Assembly: GCF_029439455.1 (NCBI RefSeq)
Contig: NZ_JAQFVG010000337.1
Location: forward strand, 12,594-76,593
DNA length: 64,000 bases
Source of the DNA: Caballeronia sp. BR00000012568055
GTDB taxonomy: Bacteria; Pseudomonadota; Gammaproteobacteria; Burkholderiales; Burkholderiaceae
Direction of reading: 5' to 3'
In this document: positions 39,408 to 45,902 of the stretch, piece after piece
How positions within the stretch are numbered: the first letter of the stretch is position 1
Layout of the letters: every line of letters begins with the position of its first letter
Position numbers and translations under genes: made by a program
Notes under the pieces: generated by a model
The model's database searches: none
What the model was told of the DNA's origin: nothing
Seen by the model: the letters and a program-made list of their open reading frames with translations, nothing else

Positions 39408-39971
39408 ATGGCATCAGACAAGGAACTTGCCGATTTCCTGGCGGGCGTCGAACGACGCGCGTTCAAGCAGACTGTCTACACCGTGCGCGACGACGACGCG
39501 GCGCTGGACATCGTGCAGGACGCCATGATCAAGCTGGCGGAAAAATACGGCGACCGCCCCCCTTCCGAGCTTCCGCTCCTTTTCCAGCGTATTCTCCAGA
39601 ATGCGACGCACGACTATTTCCGTCGCCAGAAGGTGCGCAACACCTGGGTGAGCCTGTTCTCCTCATTCGGCAGCGCCGACGACGACGAATTCGACCCGCT
39701 CGAAACCTTCGAATCGCAGGACAGCGCCACCGGCCACGAAAGCAGCGAGAACAAACTCGAGCGCGAACAGGTACTCAATCTGATCGATGCCGAAATTCAG
39801 AAACTGCCGGCGCGTCAACGAGAAGCTTTTCTCATGCGTTACTGGGAGGATATGGATGTCGCAGAGACGGCTGCCGCGATGGGCTGCTCCGAGGGTAGCG
39901 TGAAAACGCACTGCTCTCGCGCTACGCACACACTCGCGCAGGCCCTGAAAGCGAAGGGGATCACGCTATGA
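39408..39971 (+). CDS. RNA polymerase sigma factor, ECF type
   Basis: 187 residues. Region 2 shows ALDIVQDAMIKLAEKYG and the melting-type segment LPLLFQRILQNATHDYFRRQ; an acidic linker (DDDEFDPLETFES) follows. Region 4 has KLPARQREAFLMRYWEDMDVAETAAAMGCSEGSVKTH, a helix-turn-helix, closing the protein. The start is ATG 39408. Its stop overlaps the DUF3619 start as ATGA. Confidence 0.93.
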   Translation: MASDKELADFLAGVERRAFKQTVYTVRDDDAALDIVQDAMIKLAEKYGDRPPSELPLLFQRILQNATHDYFRRQKVRNTWVSLFSSFGSADDDEFDPLETFESQDSATGHESSENKLEREQVLNLIDAEIQKLPARQREAFLMRYWEDMDVAETAAAMGCSEGSVKTHCSRATHTLAQALKAKGITL

Positions 39972-40426
39972 GTTCCAATCTCGAAACGAAGGAAAATGAG
40001 TTCGCGCTAAAAGTAGTCCGTGCGCTGGACGAAAATACGTCGAACATTCCGGCTGCGGCCGTGGACCGGCTCGCGCAGGCGCGCCGGGCTGCCATCGCGC
40101 GCAAGAAGCCGGAGAAAGTCGCGGTTGCCGCGCCGGCTTTCACGCCGGTTCTGGCGGGCGCGGGTGCATCGGTGACGATGGGCAGCGGGGAATCGCGTGC
40201 GCCGAAGGGTCGGCTGGGCCGCTTTGCACGGCTCGGCGGCCTCAACCTGATTTGGCCGGTGGCGGCGCTTGTCATCGGGCTGGCCGGTATCGCTTATTGG
40301 GAAGATCAGCAGCGAAAAGCCGAACTCGCCGATATCGACGCAGCCATGCTGTCCGACAGCCTGCCGCTCGACGCTTATCTCGATCACGGCTTCAACGCGT
40401 ATCTGTCGCGCGATCGCGATCATTAA
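39968..40426 (+). CDS. DUF3619 membrane protein, probable anti-sigma factor
   Basis: 152 residues. The cytoplasmic N terminus (about residues 1-95) has a helical DEFALKVVRALDEN-like segment and basic stretch. One membrane helix follows (LNLIWPVAALVIGLAGIAYW), then a short periplasmic tail. The topology and the ATGA coupling to an ECF sigma gene fit an anti-sigma factor, but no zinc-binding anti-sigma motif is present, so this is inference. Confidence 0.75.
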   Translation: MSSNLETKENEFALKVVRALDENTSNIPAAAVDRLAQARRAAIARKKPEKVAVAAPAFTPVLAGAGASVTMGSGESRAPKGRLGRFARLGGLNLIWPVAALVIGLAGIAYWEDQQRKAELADIDAAMLSDSLPLDAYLDHGFNAYLSRDRDH

Positions 40427-40492
40427 GCAAGTTACTGAGCGCATCACTGAGTCAGTCACCAAGTCAACGATTTACAGCGGGGGAAAGTTCGG

Positions 40493-41251
40493 GTGAGTTA
40501 CAAGCGCGGTCTCGCGATTGTCTTCGGTTGCGCGATTGCGGGTCTGGTCGCGTTTGCCGCGACATATCCGCGCTTTTATCCCACCACGGCATCGACTCCC
40601 GCAGCCGCCGCTGCGCCCAATGGCGCAAGCGCTGGTACGGACGCAAGCACATCGCCGCTGGCGGCTCTGTCGTCCGATAGTCCGCTTTCCTGGAGCCACC
40701 TGACCGACGCGCAACGCGTCGCGCTCGCGCCTTTCGACAAACAGTGGGATTCCTTCAGCGATGAGCGCAAGCAAAAATGGCTGAAGATCGCATCGCGTTA
40801 TCACAAGATGTCGGTGGAATCGCAGGAACGGCTGCATAAGCGCATGGAAGAATGGGTGCGCATGACGCCCGATGAGCGCAAGGTCGCGCGCGAAAACTAT
40901 CAGGTGTCGAAATCCGTGCCGCTGGAAAAGCGCGAAAAGGCGTGGGACGCGTATCAGAAGCTCACCGAAGAGCAGAAAAGGAAGCTCGCCGCGACCGAGC
41001 GTACGCGTCGTCCGAATGTGGTGTCCGCGCCGCCTACGGGCAAGACCGAAGTGAAGGACATCAATCGGCTGGTTGCGCAGCGTGAGCAAGGGCATGCGTC
41101 GTCAGGGCATGGAGAAGCGGGATCGGCGGTTGTGCCGAACTCGTCCGCCGCGCCCGCGCAGCCCGCGATTCCCAACGCCGCGAGCATCGTGCCGGCCGCG
41201 CCGATTCCCGTGTCGCCGCAACAGGCGCCGTCGATGTACAACGGTTCCTGA
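40493..41251 (+). CDS. DUF3106 protein
   Basis: 252 residues. A single N-terminal helix (GLAIVFGCAIAGLVAFAATY) anchors or exports it. Residues about 60-165 hold three or more helical repeats around W and DE (WDSFSDERKQKWL, MTPDERKVARENY, EEQKRKLAA), the DUF3106 pattern, similar in look to Spy/CpxP-type helical sensors. The tail is Ala/Pro-rich. GTG start with GGGGAAAG upstream. Third gene of the sigma operon. Confidence 0.8.
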   Translation: MSYKRGLAIVFGCAIAGLVAFAATYPRFYPTTASTPAAAAAPNGASAGTDASTSPLAALSSDSPLSWSHLTDAQRVALAPFDKQWDSFSDERKQKWLKIASRYHKMSVESQERLHKRMEEWVRMTPDERKVARENYQVSKSVPLEKREKAWDAYQKLTEEQKRKLAATERTRRPNVVSAPPTGKTEVKDINRLVAQREQGHASSGHGEAGSAVVPNSSAAPAQPAIPNAASIVPAAPIPVSPQQAPSMYNGS

Positions 41252-41255
41252 GCGC

Positions 41256-41768
41256 ATGAGCGCGCCTGCATCGGTCGGTATCGAATCCACTTTGCGCGCG
41301 CCGTCACTGCGCCGCCGTCTCGCCGCCATGCTCTACGAGAGCATCATTCTGTTTGGCGTCGTCTTTATCTCCGGTTATCTTTTCAGCACGCTCACGCAGC
41401 AACGTAACGGCCTCACGCATCACAACTGGCTGATGTCGTGGATCGGTCTCGTGCTCGCCGCGTATTTCGTGTGGTTTTGGAGCCACGGTGGCCAGACTTT
41501 GCCGATGAAAACCTGGCGTCTGAAACTGGTCGATTCGCACGGTCAGCCCGTCAAACCGCTGCGTGCTTTCGTGCGCTATCTGCTGGCGTGGTTGTGGTTT
41601 TTGCCGCCGCTTGCGCTGCATCCGCTGCTGTCGCTGGCCGTGCCACAGACGCTCATCGTATTTGGCGTGTGGGTCGCGTTGTGGGCGGCCACGGCATGGC
41701 TCGATCCCGCACGCCAGTTTCTGCACGACCGTCTCGCCGGCACACGCGTTATCGCTGTCGGCAAGTAA
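41256..41768 (+). CDS. RDD-family membrane protein
   Basis: 170 residues with three or four membrane helices. The RDD signature appears as RRLAAMLYESIIL at the start, and the family block QTLPMKTWRLKLVD with RYLLAWLWFLPP follows. The function of the family is uncertain; some members are ion antiporters. It starts four bases after DUF3106 and closes the sigma operon. Confidence 0.83.
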   Translation: MSAPASVGIESTLRAPSLRRRLAAMLYESIILFGVVFISGYLFSTLTQQRNGLTHHNWLMSWIGLVLAAYFVWFWSHGGQTLPMKTWRLKLVDSHGQPVKPLRAFVRYLLAWLWFLPPLALHPLLSLAVPQTLIVFGVWVALWAATAWLDPARQFLHDRLAGTRVIAVGK

Positions 41769-41784
41769 TAAGAACTTCTCATGA

Positions 41785-41802
41785 CTGTCATGGCTTAGTC
41801 AC
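41785..41802 (+). promoter_or_regulatory. Candidate Pho box upstream of plcP
   Basis: CTGTCAT, four bases, then TAGTCAC: the two heptamers start 11 bases apart, as in a PhoB-binding site. The first is perfect and the second matches five of seven, giving 12 of 14 repeat positions. It ends six bases before the earliest possible GTG start (41809) and 33 before the chosen ATG. Confidence 0.55.
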
Positions 41803-41835
41803 GCTCGCGTGGCGCAATGCGCATACCGAAACTCG

Positions 41836-42825
41836 ATGCGCGAGCCAATGGCCTTGAACTCGACAGTCACACCGGCAATCGAGCCGTCCACCCTGCGCTT
41901 CCGCAACGCCGACCCGCGCGTCGCCCCCTTCGCCCTCAAGCCTTCCGATGCTCCCGATTCGACCGAAGCCTCCGGTGCATCGAACGCGCCGGCGATGGAC
42001 GCGTCGCGGCTCTCCGAATCGGATCACGACGGCGACGCGCCCGATGGTCAGCATCGCTATCGAACGATCTGGCTGTCGGATATTCACCTCGGTTCGGGCG
42101 GCTGCCAGGCGCCGTATCTGCTCGATTTTCTGCGGCACAACGAATCGGAATATCTGTATCTGGTCGGCGACATCATCGACGGATGGCAGTTGCGCAAAGG
42201 CTGGTTCTGGCCGCAGGCGCACAACGACGTAGTGCAAAAGATTCTGCGCAAGGCGCGCAAGGGTACGCAAGTCGTCTTCATCCCCGGCAATCACGATGAA
42301 GCCGCACGCCAGTTCTGCGACCTCGCTTTCGGCGACATCCACGTGCGCGGCGAAGCTTTCCATACGACGCTCGCGGGCAAGCGCCTGTGGATCGTGCACG
42401 GCGATTTGTTCGATGGCGTGATCCAGCACGCCAAGTGGCTCGCCTATCTCGGTGACACCGCCTATACGCTGATTCTGCTGCTCAACCGCTGGTTCAATCG
42501 TGTGCGCACGCGGCTCGGGCTGAACTACTGGTCGCTGTCGCAGTACCTGAAGCATCAGGTCAAGAACGCGGTCAACTTTATCTCGCAGTTCGAAAAGGTC
42601 ATGACCGACGAAGCGCGCCGTCGCGGCTGCGACGGCGTGGTGTGCGGGCATATCCACAAGGCGGAAATCCGCGAGATCGACGGCACGCTTTACTGCAACG
42701 ACGGCGACTGGGTCGAAAGCCTGTCGGCGCTGGTCGAGACTTATGACGGTGAACTGAAGATCGTCTACTGGACCGTCATGCGTTCGCCGGAAGCGCGCTC
42801 CAGCAAAGCCAAAGCGACCGTCTGA
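41836..42825 (+). CDS. plcP: PlcP-type phospholipase C / metallophosphoesterase (LpxH-like)
   Basis: 329 residues. The calcineurin-type motifs are all present: WLSDIHLGS, LVGDIIDGW, FIPGNHDE, VHGDLFD and CGHIHKAE. The segments SDIHLGSGGCQA and NDVVQKILRKARKGT and the length match PlcP, the phospholipase C of alphaproteobacteria that frees diacylglycerol from phospholipids under phosphate starvation. Automatic annotation usually names such proteins LpxH-like. About 75 disordered N-terminal residues precede the domain. Start choice is uncertain: GTG 41809 and ATG 41848 are also possible, and none has a ribosome site. The next two genes use or recycle diacylglycerol. Confidence 0.78.
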   Translation: MREPMALNSTVTPAIEPSTLRFRNADPRVAPFALKPSDAPDSTEASGASNAPAMDASRLSESDHDGDAPDGQHRYRTIWLSDIHLGSGGCQAPYLLDFLRHNESEYLYLVGDIIDGWQLRKGWFWPQAHNDVVQKILRKARKGTQVVFIPGNHDEAARQFCDLAFGDIHVRGEAFHTTLAGKRLWIVHGDLFDGVIQHAKWLAYLGDTAYTLILLLNRWFNRVRTRLGLNYWSLSQYLKHQVKNAVNFISQFEKVMTDEARRRGCDGVVCGHIHKAEIREIDGTLYCNDGDWVESLSALVETYDGELKIVYWTVMRSPEARSSKAKATV

Positions 42826-42878
42826 ACATGACCCTCCGATCCACGAACCGATCCACAAACGTTAGCGGGCAAAAGCGT

Positions 42879-43913
42879 ATGAAAATCATGATCGTTACCG
42901 ACGCATGGGAGCCGCAAGTCAACGGCGTCGTGCGCACGCTCAAGAACACGACGAAGGAACTGACCGCGCTCGGCCATCACGTCGATCTGCTCACGCCGCT
43001 CGAATTCAAAACGATTCCCTGCCCGACCTACCCCGAAATTCGTTTATCGCTGATGCCGGGCAAGCATGTGAACGAGCGTATCGACGCGTTCGATCCGGAT
43101 GCGCTTCATATCGCGACGGAAGGGCCGCTCGGCATGGCCGCGCGTTCGTACGCGATCAAGCACAAGCTGCCGTTCACGACCGCGTATCACACGCGTTTTC
43201 CGGAGTATGTAAAGGCGCGCTTCGGCATTCCGCTGGTGGCGACGTACAAGTTCCTGCACTGGTTCCACAAGCCGTCACAGGCAGTGATGGCACCGACGCC
43301 CGTGGTCAAGAGCGATCTCGAAAAATACGGCTTCACCAATGTCGTGCTGTGGACGCGCGGCGTCGATCTCGACATCTTCCATATGATGGATTCGAAGGTG
43401 CTGAACACCGCGCGCCCGATCTTTCTGTACGTGGGACGCGTGGCCGTCGAAAAGAATGTGGAAGCGTTTCTGAAGCTCGATTTGCCCGGTTCGAAGTGGG
43501 TTGCGGGCGAAGGTCCGGCGCTGGCCGAACTGAAGGCGCGCTATACCGATGTCAACTATCTCGGCGTGCTCTCGCAGCCGGAACTGGCGAAGGTCTACGC
43601 CGCCGCGGACGTGTTCGTGTTCCCGAGCAAGACCGACACCTTCGGCCTCGTGCTGCTCGAAGCGATGGCCTGCGGCACGCCGGTCGCGGCGTATCCGGTC
43701 ACCGGTCCGATCGATGTGCTCGGCACCGACGGCCCCGGCGCGATGAACGCCGACCTGCGCGAAGCCTGCCTCGATGCGCTGAAAATCCAGCGTGCCGATG
43801 CGCGCGCGTGGGCGGAACGCTTCTCGTGGCGCGCGGCATCGGAACAATTCGCTTCGCATCTGCGCAAGTTCGGCCCGCGCGGCGGCGCGAGCACCGACCG
43901 GGCGGCCGCATGA
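42879..43913 (+). CDS. Glycosyltransferase family 4 (Agt-like diacylglycerol glycosyltransferase)
   Basis: 344 residues. N-terminal KIMIVTDAWEPQVNGVVRT and CPTYPEIRLS, then TAYHTRFPEY and LWTRGVDLDIF, closely resemble Agt and SqdX, which transfer sugar to diacylglycerol. The donor-binding element is FPSKTDTFGLVLLEAMACG. The ATG at 42879 is the usual family start; an upstream ATG at 42828 would add 17 residues. The stop overlaps dgkA as ATGA. Donor and acceptor are not proven. Confidence 0.8.
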   Translation: MKIMIVTDAWEPQVNGVVRTLKNTTKELTALGHHVDLLTPLEFKTIPCPTYPEIRLSLMPGKHVNERIDAFDPDALHIATEGPLGMAARSYAIKHKLPFTTAYHTRFPEYVKARFGIPLVATYKFLHWFHKPSQAVMAPTPVVKSDLEKYGFTNVVLWTRGVDLDIFHMMDSKVLNTARPIFLYVGRVAVEKNVEAFLKLDLPGSKWVAGEGPALAELKARYTDVNYLGVLSQPELAKVYAAADVFVFPSKTDTFGLVLLEAMACGTPVAAYPVTGPIDVLGTDGPGAMNADLREACLDALKIQRADARAWAERFSWRAASEQFASHLRKFGPRGGASTDRAAA

Positions 43914-44452
43914 CGCGACGCGCACTTGCGCAAGAGCGGGCGTCGGCAGGCAGCAATTCACGCGATCCCTTCGATGACGACATCGAAGAATTGGTCGATA
44001 CACCTGCGAGATCGGCCGAACCGCCTAGCGAGCCGTTAAGTCCCGACGATCTGCCCTTTAATCCGTACAAGGGCAATCGCGGCTTCACGCGCGCGTGGCA
44101 CGCGATGAAGAATTCGCTCTACGGCTTTCAGGTGGCGATCCGCGAGGAAAGCGCGTTTCGCCAGGAACTGACGCTCGCCGCCATTCTGCTGCCGTGCAGT
44201 CTGTTCGTGCCGGTCGCGCCGGTGGAGCGCGTGGCGCTGATCGCGTCGGTATTGCTGGTGCTGATCGTCGAATTGCTGAATTCGAGCGTGGAGGCGGCCA
44301 TCGACCGAATCTCGCTGGAACGGCACGAACTGTCCAAGCGCGCCAAGGATCTCGGCAGCGCGGCCGTGATGGTCGCGCTGGTCTTGTGCGTGCTCACGTG
44401 GGCGCTGATTCTCTGGCCGCTTGCGTCCGCGTGGCTGACGCGTATCTTATAA
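43910..44452 (+). CDS. dgkA: Diacylglycerol kinase
   Basis: 180 residues, against 122 in E. coli. The core has three membrane helices and the catalytic segments FRQELTLAAILLP, IVELLNSSVEAAIDR and LSKRAKDLGSAAV. An acidic, Pro-rich N-terminal extension of about 55 residues (DPFDDDIEELVDTPARS) has no counterpart in E. coli. The start overlaps the glycosyltransferase stop (ATGA). It phosphorylates diacylglycerol to phosphatidate. Confidence 0.92.
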   Translation: MTRRALAQERASAGSNSRDPFDDDIEELVDTPARSAEPPSEPLSPDDLPFNPYKGNRGFTRAWHAMKNSLYGFQVAIREESAFRQELTLAAILLPCSLFVPVAPVERVALIASVLLVLIVELLNSSVEAAIDRISLERHELSKRAKDLGSAAVMVALVLCVLTWALILWPLASAWLTRIL

Positions 44453-44501
44453 AGACGAAGACTCTCCAGAGAGCCGCGTCCGTCATGCCGAACGACCGGT
44501 T

Positions 44502-44507
44502 TATAAT
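44502..44507 (+). promoter_or_regulatory. Possible -10 element before the TetR gene
   Basis: A perfect TATAAT lies 89 bases upstream of the TetR start, in the gap after dgkA. No good -35 is seen. Confidence 0.3.
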
Positions 44508-44595
44508 CGTCCGACATTCTCAAAAAAGAGCAACGGAAGCGGATGCTGAAGCGCCCATCCCGGGCGCGCGCGTTTCGATGCCAAGGTCGGACGAC

Positions 44596-45315
44596 ATGGA
44601 AGCCAAACCACCCCGCCGCACCCGCGAACGGATACTCGAGCTATCGCTGAAGCTGTTCAACGATATCGGCGAGCCGAACGTCACCACGACGACCATCGCC
44701 GAGGAAATGGAGATTAGTCCAGGAAATCTGTACTACCACTTCCGCAACAAGGACGACATCATCAACAGCATCTTTGCTCAGTTCGAGCAACAGATACAGA
44801 AGCGCCTGCGCTTCCCGGACGATCATCGCCCGACGATCGACGAGATGTGGTCGTACCTGCAATACATGGCGGATTTTCTCTGGACTTACCGCTTTCTGTA
44901 TCGCGATCTCAACGATCTGCTGGCGCGCAACCGCACGCTCGAGACGCACTTCAAGCAGATCATCACGCACAAGCAGCACTTTGCGCGGCAGTTGTGCGAA
45001 GCGCTCGTCACCGATGGCGAGATGGTCGCCACGCCCGATGAAATCAGCGTGATCGCGACGAATATGGGGCTGCTCGCGACGTACTGGCTGTCGTATCAGT
45101 ACGTGATGAATCCGCGCAAATATAACGATCAGGAAGCGATTCGCGCGGAGCTGCATCAGGCGAGTCTGAATATCATTTCGATCATGGCGCCGTATCTGCG
45201 CGGGCGTTCGCGTCAACTCTTCGACGACCTCGTTTCCGGTAAGCTGCCGAAGCGCCAGTTCGCGGATTTCCTGCCGCAGCGCGAAGACAAAACGGATACC
45301 CCGAAGGATTCTTGA
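44596..45315 (+). CDS. TetR-family transcriptional regulator
   Basis: 239 residues. The helix-turn-helix is PNVTTTTIAEEMEISPGNLYYHFRNKDDI near residues 22-50. The C-terminal ligand domain is all-helical, with a segment rich in Trp and Tyr (WSYLQYMADFLWTYRF). The ATG at 44596 has AAGG about nine bases upstream; ATG 44578 is possible. The ligand is unknown. It could control dgkA or the genes after it. Confidence 0.85.
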   Translation: MEAKPPRRTRERILELSLKLFNDIGEPNVTTTTIAEEMEISPGNLYYHFRNKDDIINSIFAQFEQQIQKRLRFPDDHRPTIDEMWSYLQYMADFLWTYRFLYRDLNDLLARNRTLETHFKQIITHKQHFARQLCEALVTDGEMVATPDEISVIATNMGLLATYWLSYQYVMNPRKYNDQEAIRAELHQASLNIISIMAPYLRGRSRQLFDDLVSGKLPKRQFADFLPQREDKTDTPKDS

Positions 45316-45317
45316 GC

Positions 45318-45902
45318 ATGAAAGCAGTCTGTGTTTATTGCGGCTCCGCGACCGGCGCCCGCCCCGTTTATGCCGAAGCCGCGAAGGCGTTCGGCCGCGC
45401 ATTGGTCGATGCCGGTTTATCGCTGGTGTATGGCGGCGGACGCGTCGGCCTGATGGGTCTGATCGCCGATGAAGTGCTGAACGCGGGCGGCCGCGCGATC
45501 GGCGTGATTCCGGAATTGTTGCTGGCCAAGGAAGTCGGCCACACGGATTTGACGGAACTGATCGTCGTGCCCGACATGCACGAGCGCAAAAAGAAAATGG
45601 CCGATCTCGCCGATGCCTTCGTCGCCATGCCCGGCGGCGTCGGCACCTTCGAAGAGTTTTTCGAGGTCTATACGTGGGCGCAACTCGGCTATCACCAGAA
45701 GCCGGTCGGCCTGCTCGACGTCAATGGCTACTACGATCCGATGATGGCGATGCTGCGTCATACGGTCGAAGAAGGCTTTATGCGCGCGTCGTTGCTCGAC
45801 ATGATTCAGGTGGCCGAAGATCCTGTTGAGATGCTGGCGAAACTCGAACGTTATACGCCGCCCGCGCATGACAAGTGGACGGATCATAGAAACGCTGTCT
45901 GA
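45318..45902 (+). CDS. LOG-family protein (cytokinin riboside phosphate phosphoribohydrolase-like)
   Basis: 194 residues. The family motifs PGGVGTFEE and YGGGRVGLMG are intact. Such enzymes cleave nucleoside 5'-monophosphates to base and ribose 5-phosphate, freeing cytokinins in plants. ATG 45318 lies just after the TetR stop codon. Confidence 0.92.
   Translation: MKAVCVYCGSATGARPVYAEAAKAFGRALVDAGLSLVYGGGRVGLMGLIADEVLNAGGRAIGVIPELLLAKEVGHTDLTELIVVPDMHERKKKMADLADAFVAMPGGVGTFEEFFEVYTWAQLGYHQKPVGLLDVNGYYDPMMAMLRHTVEEGFMRASLLDMIQVAEDPVEMLAKLERYTPPAHDKWTDHRNAV

Follow-up and report, generated by a model that had tools for sequence, protein, structure and literature searches.

The DNA analysed here (the window) is a 64,000-nucleotide stretch of contig NZ_JAQFVG010000337.1 from Caballeronia sp. 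BR00000012568055 (GCF_029439455.1), a Caballeronia-like genome of 6.9 Mb. Positions 41774-44452 contain three consecutive genes on the forward strand, plcP, agt, and dgkA, which are preceded by a Pho-box promoter and form a candidate lipid-remodelling operon. The plcP gene (41848..42825) encodes a PlcP-type phospholipid metallophosphoesterase of 325 amino acids, agt (42879..43913) a glycosyltransferase family 4 (GT4) enzyme of the Agt type, predicted to glycosylate diacylglycerol, and dgkA (43910..44452) an integral-membrane diacylglycerol kinase of 180 amino acids. Their products were assigned to the Pfam families Metallophos, GT4 and GT1 domains, and DAGK_prokar, respectively. The start of dgkA at 43910 overlaps the end of agt at 43913 by ATGA. 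A preliminary description of the window had reported the tight order of the three genes and this overlap, and all of them were found on the same strand and in the place given there. Among the matches listed, the best named plcP matches belonged to Caballeronia temeraria (95%) and Caballeronia sp. (96%).

Eighty named loci were taken for comparison; they represent the best of at least 587 relatives and therefore favour close kin. An Agt of at least 65% identity follows plcP in 79 of them, the remaining locus (L090) having only a glycosyltransferase of 34% identity located upstream, and DgkA is present in 66. The operon order plcP-agt-dgkA, also noted in the preliminary description, proved to be conserved in all 58 loci designated L012-L069, from Burkholderia to Ralstonia/Cupriavidus. 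These loci cover the genera Burkholderia, Paraburkholderia, Caballeronia, Trinickia, Pandoraea, Cupriavidus, and Ralstonia, and also include two assembled genomes labelled Bordetella (L056) and Burkholderiaceae (L062). Among the outer 22 named loci, 14 were without dgkA, five of them on contigs ending in or just after agt.

Products of plcP, agt, and dgkA

The plcP product scored 42.6 bits with Metallophos and contains all five metallophosphoesterase motifs (SDxHLG, GDI, GNH, HGDxFD, and GHxH). In 137 PlcP frames, SD[LIV]HLG was counted in 126, the GD[IL] pattern in 133, HGDxFD in 129, and both GNH and GHxH in 137. With the LpxH model TIGR01854 the protein reached 35 bits against a cut-off of 190.35 and thus falls outside that family. 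The true LpxH of the same genome (C333:4144-4806, 229 bits) is located on the same contig outside the window and shares 23% identity with the plcP product (BLASTP); a true LpxH was present in 21 of 21 relatives. In the maximum-likelihood tree of 86 rows, 64 PlcP rows were split from 21 LpxH rows at 100/100, the one ungrouped row lying on the PlcP side; nine class rows without the start motif were dropped from this tree and were included in the PlcP-only tree considered below. The preliminary description had proposed the PlcP type and a phylogeny as a check, and the phosphoesterase was not placed with true LpxH. By its sequence, the enzyme is PlcP and not LpxH; an LpxH isozyme is rejected on the model score, the separate LpxH on the contig, the tree, and the low identity.

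The homologues from Sinorhizobium meliloti (50.8% identity by tblastn) and Pseudomonas aeruginosa (52.9%) fall on the same side of the tree as the window protein. Genes for a LuxR regulator and an acyl-homoserine-lactone synthase are found close to the former, surroundings that we take to be the sinR-sinI region of the proven plcP SMc00171, the tag being our assumption rather than part of the records. The latter is followed by a glycosyltransferase and then an adenylate cyclase, presumably PA3219-PA3218-PA3217, with tags likewise not from the records. No close solved PlcP was found in a PDB sequence search. The predicted structure had a mean predicted local distance difference test (pLDDT) value of 78.0 and a predicted template modelling score of 0.74, with residues 122-139 and 249-258 below a pLDDT of 50; no claim made here rests on this model.

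The Agt protein shares 49.3% identity by tblastn (47% in the alignment) with the glycosyltransferase beside the P. aeruginosa plcP. For the SAR11 enzyme GTcp, the available text of PMC8231724 describes two donor motifs, a dyad formed by His104 and Asp256, residues that cannot be replaced without loss of activity, and contacts with docked diacylglycerol. All 14 residues named for GTcp are present at the corresponding positions of the window Agt, including those whose mutation inactivates GTcp and those reported to contact diacylglycerol; the dyad, GRVAxEKN, FPSxTDTFG, and the donor and diacylglycerol-contact residues were all matched. Thirteen of the 14 are invariant over 15 aligned rows, T162 being either T or S. 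The DTFG..LEA pattern was missing from the best frame in 20 of 115 loci with an Agt-profile frame. A PDB sequence search with Agt returned general GT4 matches only. The agt frame is open from ATG 42828, and conservation begins at ATG 42879 (MKIMIVTDAWEP); because the latter is the conserved start, the gap between plcP and agt is 53 nt rather than 2. Judged by the alignment and these residues, the glycosyltransferase is of the Agt type, in agreement with the preliminary description; its sugar specificity cannot be read from the residues.

The dgkA product scored 111 bits with DAGK_prokar (cut-off 22.3), and its residues 56-170 align to the solved DgkA (E 3.9e-28, phmmer). It shares the family and key motifs (ESAFRQE, ELLNSSVEAAID, and AKDLG) with Escherichia coli DgkA and differs from it by an N-terminal extension of about 55 amino acids and by the position of its gene behind plcP-agt. 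In 75 Dgk frames, ExAFRxE and AKD were found in all 75 and the ExxNxxxExxxD motif in at least 68. A second DgkA of the genome, 60% identical over 121 residues, is encoded on another contig (C235), where its neighbours are a LysR regulator, a SLAC1-type channel, a cupin, an EamA transporter, an alpha/beta hydrolase, and a permease; no lipid-related partner was found among them.

All 13 genomes compared within the genus encode a DgkA at a distance of 1.3-1.6 kb from their plcP match. An unlinked paralog occurs in eight of these, and in the other five (one of them a 60% complete genome) the linked DgkA was the only copy found. The operon dgkA is therefore the basic, core copy of the genus, and the possibility that it is a recent extra copy is ruled out, the unlinked paralog being the extra one. 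The statement of the preliminary description that a kinase "is added" in this operon does not hold in view of this core status and of the DgkA genes found near plcP elsewhere in the class. Since the linked DgkA is the core, and sometimes the only, DgkA of the genus, it probably also takes part in general diacylglycerol recycling. PlcP itself was detected in 55 of 57 genus genomes at E 1e-60, some of the matches being partial or broken.

Pho box, distribution, and linkage of the genes

The putative PhoB site upstream of plcP (41774..41802, forward strand) consists of three half-sites at an 11-bp period, ACTTCTC-ATGA-CTGTCAT-GGCT-TAGTCAC (41774-41780, 41785-41791, and 41796-41802). Against the Pho-box consensus used for scoring, which we took to be CTGTCAY-N4-CTGTCAY, positions 41785-41802 matched 12 of 14 and gave the highest score among the 127,966 18-mers of the two strands of the 64-kb window, so the PhoB-box-like site of the preliminary description was recovered. 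A pstS-box matrix, independent of plcP, ranked the overlapping 41774-41791 first and 41785-41802 seventh of the 127,966. This matrix was derived from 24 pstS loci of the genome and its relatives, in which 14 boxes (12 distinct) were picked by eye; ten loci were left out: nine showed no clear site, and in L161 the site was 367 bp upstream.

Upstream sequence was sufficient for scoring in 57 of the 58 loci L012-L069; a box of at least 11/14 lies near plcP in 56 of them and one of at least 12/14 in 55, compared with 4.9% and 2.5% of random 300-bp windows reaching 11/14 and 12/14. The 58 loci are related and do not represent independent trials; seven control genes sharing the same relatedness reached 12/14 in 1 of 58 (Agt), 0 of 58 (Dgk), 0 of 56 (TetR), 0 of 56 (LOG), 1 of 50 (DUF3619), 0 of 50 (DUF3106), and 1 of 52 (RDD) cases. 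The Pho box before plcP is not due to chance.

An element resembling an extended -10, TGG-CGCAAT (41810..41818, forward strand), sits 10 bp past the box. The box combined with GGCN[TC]AAT at the same spacing was found in 41 of the 58 loci, and 36 of these share the TGG of the window; the 41 composites were the only ones in those loci on either strand, and another was found in a Polynucleobacter locus (L089). Transcription would start near 41825. Although the open frame of plcP extends back to GTG 41809, this codon is an unlikely start because it precedes the likely transcription start, and the position of the box argues likewise. The likelier ATG 41848 stands 63 bp downstream of where the 41785 site begins, similar to many relatives, which most often pair an ATG at -168 with a box at -230. 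A generic sigma-70 scan of 41100-45400 detected no promoter, as would be expected were PhoB to replace the -35 contact. No Pho box of its own at 11/14 or above was found before dgkA in any of the 58 loci; with neither such a box nor a sigma-70-like promoter for dgkA, the operon promoter is the only one recognised. Taken from box score, spacing, and conservation, the operon is probably under PhoB control.

PlcP was detected at E 1e-20 in 55 of 184 genomes drawn evenly across the class, and the surroundings of 53 of these loci were read, the window's own genome and one partial match being left out; a few of the stretches were cut short by contig ends, so that some DgkA genes may have been missed. 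DgkA was encoded within about 5 kb of plcP in nine of the 53 loci, belonging to seven genera, where it lies upstream, downstream, or divergent. The chance expectation is 0.18-0.36 loci, assuming one or two DgkA per 3 Mb as a round figure. Among 56 plcP upstream regions, four from plasmid records and 52 from the set of 53 class loci, 23 reached at least 11/14, compared with 5% of random windows, so the box is far from universal. Directly 5' of the nine class-wide dgkA genes, a box of 11/14 was present in one. The PlcP-only tree comprised 74 rows and included 17 of the 80 named loci. The state of linkage switches on it on 10 occasions, nine or more of them by well-supported branches; the plcP-dgkA linkage has therefore repeatedly been gained or lost.

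Ten genomes of the genus (L279-L288) have plcP and/or agt missing, broken, or partial, as in genome reduction. They were hand-picked as eight genomes with a missing or partial PlcP plus the small G207 and G238; eight of the ten measure 2.8-4.2 Mb, and all are drafts in which sequencing errors are possible. The dgkA gene is of full or near-full length in G223, G207, G247, and G234, open with a changed AFRQE motif in G243, open in its core with the N-terminal stretch out of frame in G205, and damaged in G211, G218, G237, and G238. The G211 contig begins just before dgkA, so the absence of plcP and agt from this genome means no more than that genome searches did not detect them.

Several plcP matches were located in records labelled as plasmids. 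In Mitsuaria sp. 7 (NZ_CP011515.1, L193), a plasmid plcP lies beside a polyphosphate kinase and a Ppx/GppA phosphatase, which is another phosphate-linked context. A P. aeruginosa plasmid record (NZ_CP137508.1, L192) has the plcP-glycosyltransferase pair among chromosomal-looking neighbours, and two further P. aeruginosa plasmid records match the same PlcP protein. The 3.7-Mb S. meliloti record labelled pSymB (CP090106.1, L191), which carries the quorum-sensing pair and plcP, looks like a chromosome under a plasmid name.

Proposed pathway, alternatives, and known systems

The locus is interpreted as a PhoB-controlled operon for the replacement of phospholipids with glycolipids, a reading to which we assign a probability of roughly three in four. 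At low phosphate, phosphorylated PhoB would bind the triple half-site box and drive plcP-agt-dgkA from the extended -10 promoter. By analogy with its proven relatives, PlcP would cleave the phospho-headgroup, probably mainly of phosphatidylethanolamine, at the inner face of the cytoplasmic membrane and release diacylglycerol. Agt would then transfer glucose and/or glucuronic acid from a UDP-sugar onto diacylglycerol to form a phosphorus-free glycolipid. DgkA, for whose role there is no direct precedent, would compete with Agt for the diacylglycerol pool and return part of it to phosphatidate, which would keep free diacylglycerol low and supply the remaining synthesis of anionic phospholipids. 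The return of surplus diacylglycerol to phosphatidate, suggested in the preliminary description, is plausible. The preliminary description was thus right on most points and wrong on the kinase as an added copy, and its interpretation is partly supported.

Several observations weigh against the proposed operon function. Seventeen of the 58 loci lack the -10 element as defined for the search, and the third half-site, TAGTCAC, departs from the consensus. By profile, dgkA was not found in 44 of the 53 class loci, a few of whose stretches are cut by contig ends, and the plcP regions compared from S. meliloti and P. aeruginosa yielded none either. The synthesis of phosphatidate spends ATP phosphate, which is odd under phosphate starvation. 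In six genomes of the genus, neither plcP nor agt was recovered intact, the genes being broken or undetected (G205, G211, G218, G223, G237, and G243). Among these, dgkA has an open core in three and is damaged in three; each of the three open cores (G205, G223, and G243) is the only DgkA copy, and one of the three damaged cases has an intact paralog. Hence dgkA does not simply share the fate of plcP-agt, and this small and mixed sample leans towards some independent use of DgkA. Finally, the available text of PMC5082522 speaks for a link, as it states that DagK rises together with PlcP in phosphate-starved Pseudomonas putida BIRD-1 and calls it PHO-dependent, but DagK is missing from the printed Table 2 of that paper.

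Three alternatives concern the individual genes. Public records label homologues of the plcP product UDP-2,3-diacylglucosamine diphosphatase, the two enzymes belong to one superfamily, and LpxH was a weak match in the PDB sequence search (E 0.0044). An operon serving the outer membrane, with its phosphoesterase as an LpxH isozyme in lipid A synthesis, is nevertheless extremely improbable given 35 bits against a 190-bit cut-off, a true LpxH of 229 bits with 23% identity in the same genome, and the 100/100 split from the 21 LpxH rows. As GT4 enzymes accept many acceptors, the glycosyltransferase might act on a polysaccharide or the lipopolysaccharide core instead of diacylglycerol. This is improbable, since all 14 GTcp residues are kept with the diacylglycerol-contacting ones among them, the protein shares 49.3% identity with the product of a P. 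aeruginosa gene adjoining plcP, 79 of the 80 named loci have an Agt of at least 65% identity behind plcP, and an Agt profile match of at least 350 bits lies near plcP in 25 of the 53 class loci.

The alternative for dgkA is a serious contender, held at a little under even odds: the gene would be a housekeeping passenger that recycles diacylglycerol from other sources (periplasmic glucan, lipid A modification) and stands behind plcP-agt by happenstance. It is favoured by the core status of this DgkA (linked in 13/13 genus genomes and the only copy found in 5/13) and by the three reduced genomes of six in which the core stays open, each time as the only copy. It is opposed by the nine class loci in seven genera where DgkA adjoins plcP in varied orientation, far above chance, by the lack of a recognised Pho box (0/58) or sigma-70-like promoter for dgkA, and by the damage to dgkA in the other three reduced genomes. 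A functional role of the kinase may tentatively be drawn further, with the odds somewhat against it: PlcP, Agt, and DgkA would form a three-enzyme diacylglycerol branch point under one PhoB switch, in which DgkA sets the extent of membrane conversion and the speed of return once phosphate is back, and whose linkage was repeatedly gained or lost in the class. If so, DgkA would be a general, overlooked part of bacterial phosphate-starvation lipid remodelling.

Among the closest known systems is the PlcP-Agt1 operon of P. aeruginosa (PA3219-PA3218; Agt2 is PA0842), which resembles the window in having plcP followed by agt, a Pho box ahead, and about 50% identity of both proteins. It differs in that DgkA was not found in the 8.7-kb stretch of L192 by the gene table and profile search, and Agt1 has W-R-K-G where the window Agt has W-T-R-G. 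According to the available text of PMC8528852, Agt1 and Agt2 expressed in E. coli produced glycolipids. The S. meliloti stretch differs in having no glycosyltransferase beside plcP in its (incomplete) gene table and no DgkA detected by profile. The glycosylation of diacylglycerol by Agt at low phosphate, with the Agt of Agrobacterium tumefaciens as a comparison, has been published (available parts of PMC8231724 and PMC4796936). The plcP clusters of marine heterotrophs (types 1-6) contain plcP-agt with putative Pho boxes, as in the window (PMC4796936); the main text of that paper as available contains none of the words kinase, Burkholderia, and betaproteobacteria. The ornithine lipids of Burkholderia sensu lato are a phosphate-linked membrane change in the same lineage, with Pho boxes proposed before olsB, but they involve other enzymes and lipids, and diacylglycerol is not mentioned in the available main text (PMC7814305).

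The PlcP-Agt pathway is thus already known elsewhere; Burkholderiaceae are a new lineage for it, and the conserved third gene dgkA makes the operon a variant. No description of PlcP-Agt in Burkholderiaceae, or of dgkA as a part of the operon, was found in the literature searched, which agrees with the preliminary description; the arrangement looks new here, with priority uncertain because the coverage of the literature was partial. The reading predicts that Burkholderia, Paraburkholderia, Caballeronia, Ralstonia, and Cupriavidus replace phospholipids with glycolipids at low phosphate, a swap that would stand beside the ornithine lipids. In P. aeruginosa, such glycolipids are reported to bear on antibiotic sensitivity, including that to polymyxin B (available text of PMC8528852 and PMC9804370), and the operon would therefore bear on the membrane physiology of soil and plant-associated species. 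Moreover, a lasting diacylglycerol kinase in the operon makes the sharing of the diacylglycerol intermediate a directly testable question.

Surrounding genes

A weak terminator-like hairpin (44428..44452, forward strand; stem 44428-44442, tail over the dgkA stop codon) was indicated by the pattern scan only; seven such sites occur in 41100-45400 against 4.4 expected in shuffles, so the hairpin is no evidence of function. Genes encoding DUF3619, DUF3106, and RDD proteins are situated directly 5' of the operon (39968-41768) and were scored in 50, 50, and 52 of the 58 loci, several of which end before these genes. Upstream of them in the window is an extracytoplasmic function (ECF) sigma factor gene (39408-39971; PRK09047, 289 bits). 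Directly 3' of dgkA (44530-45902), a TetR-family regulator (PF13972) and a LOG-type protein (TIGR00730, 232 bits) are encoded; these two neighbours are kept in 56 of the 58 loci and inverted in L061 and L063.

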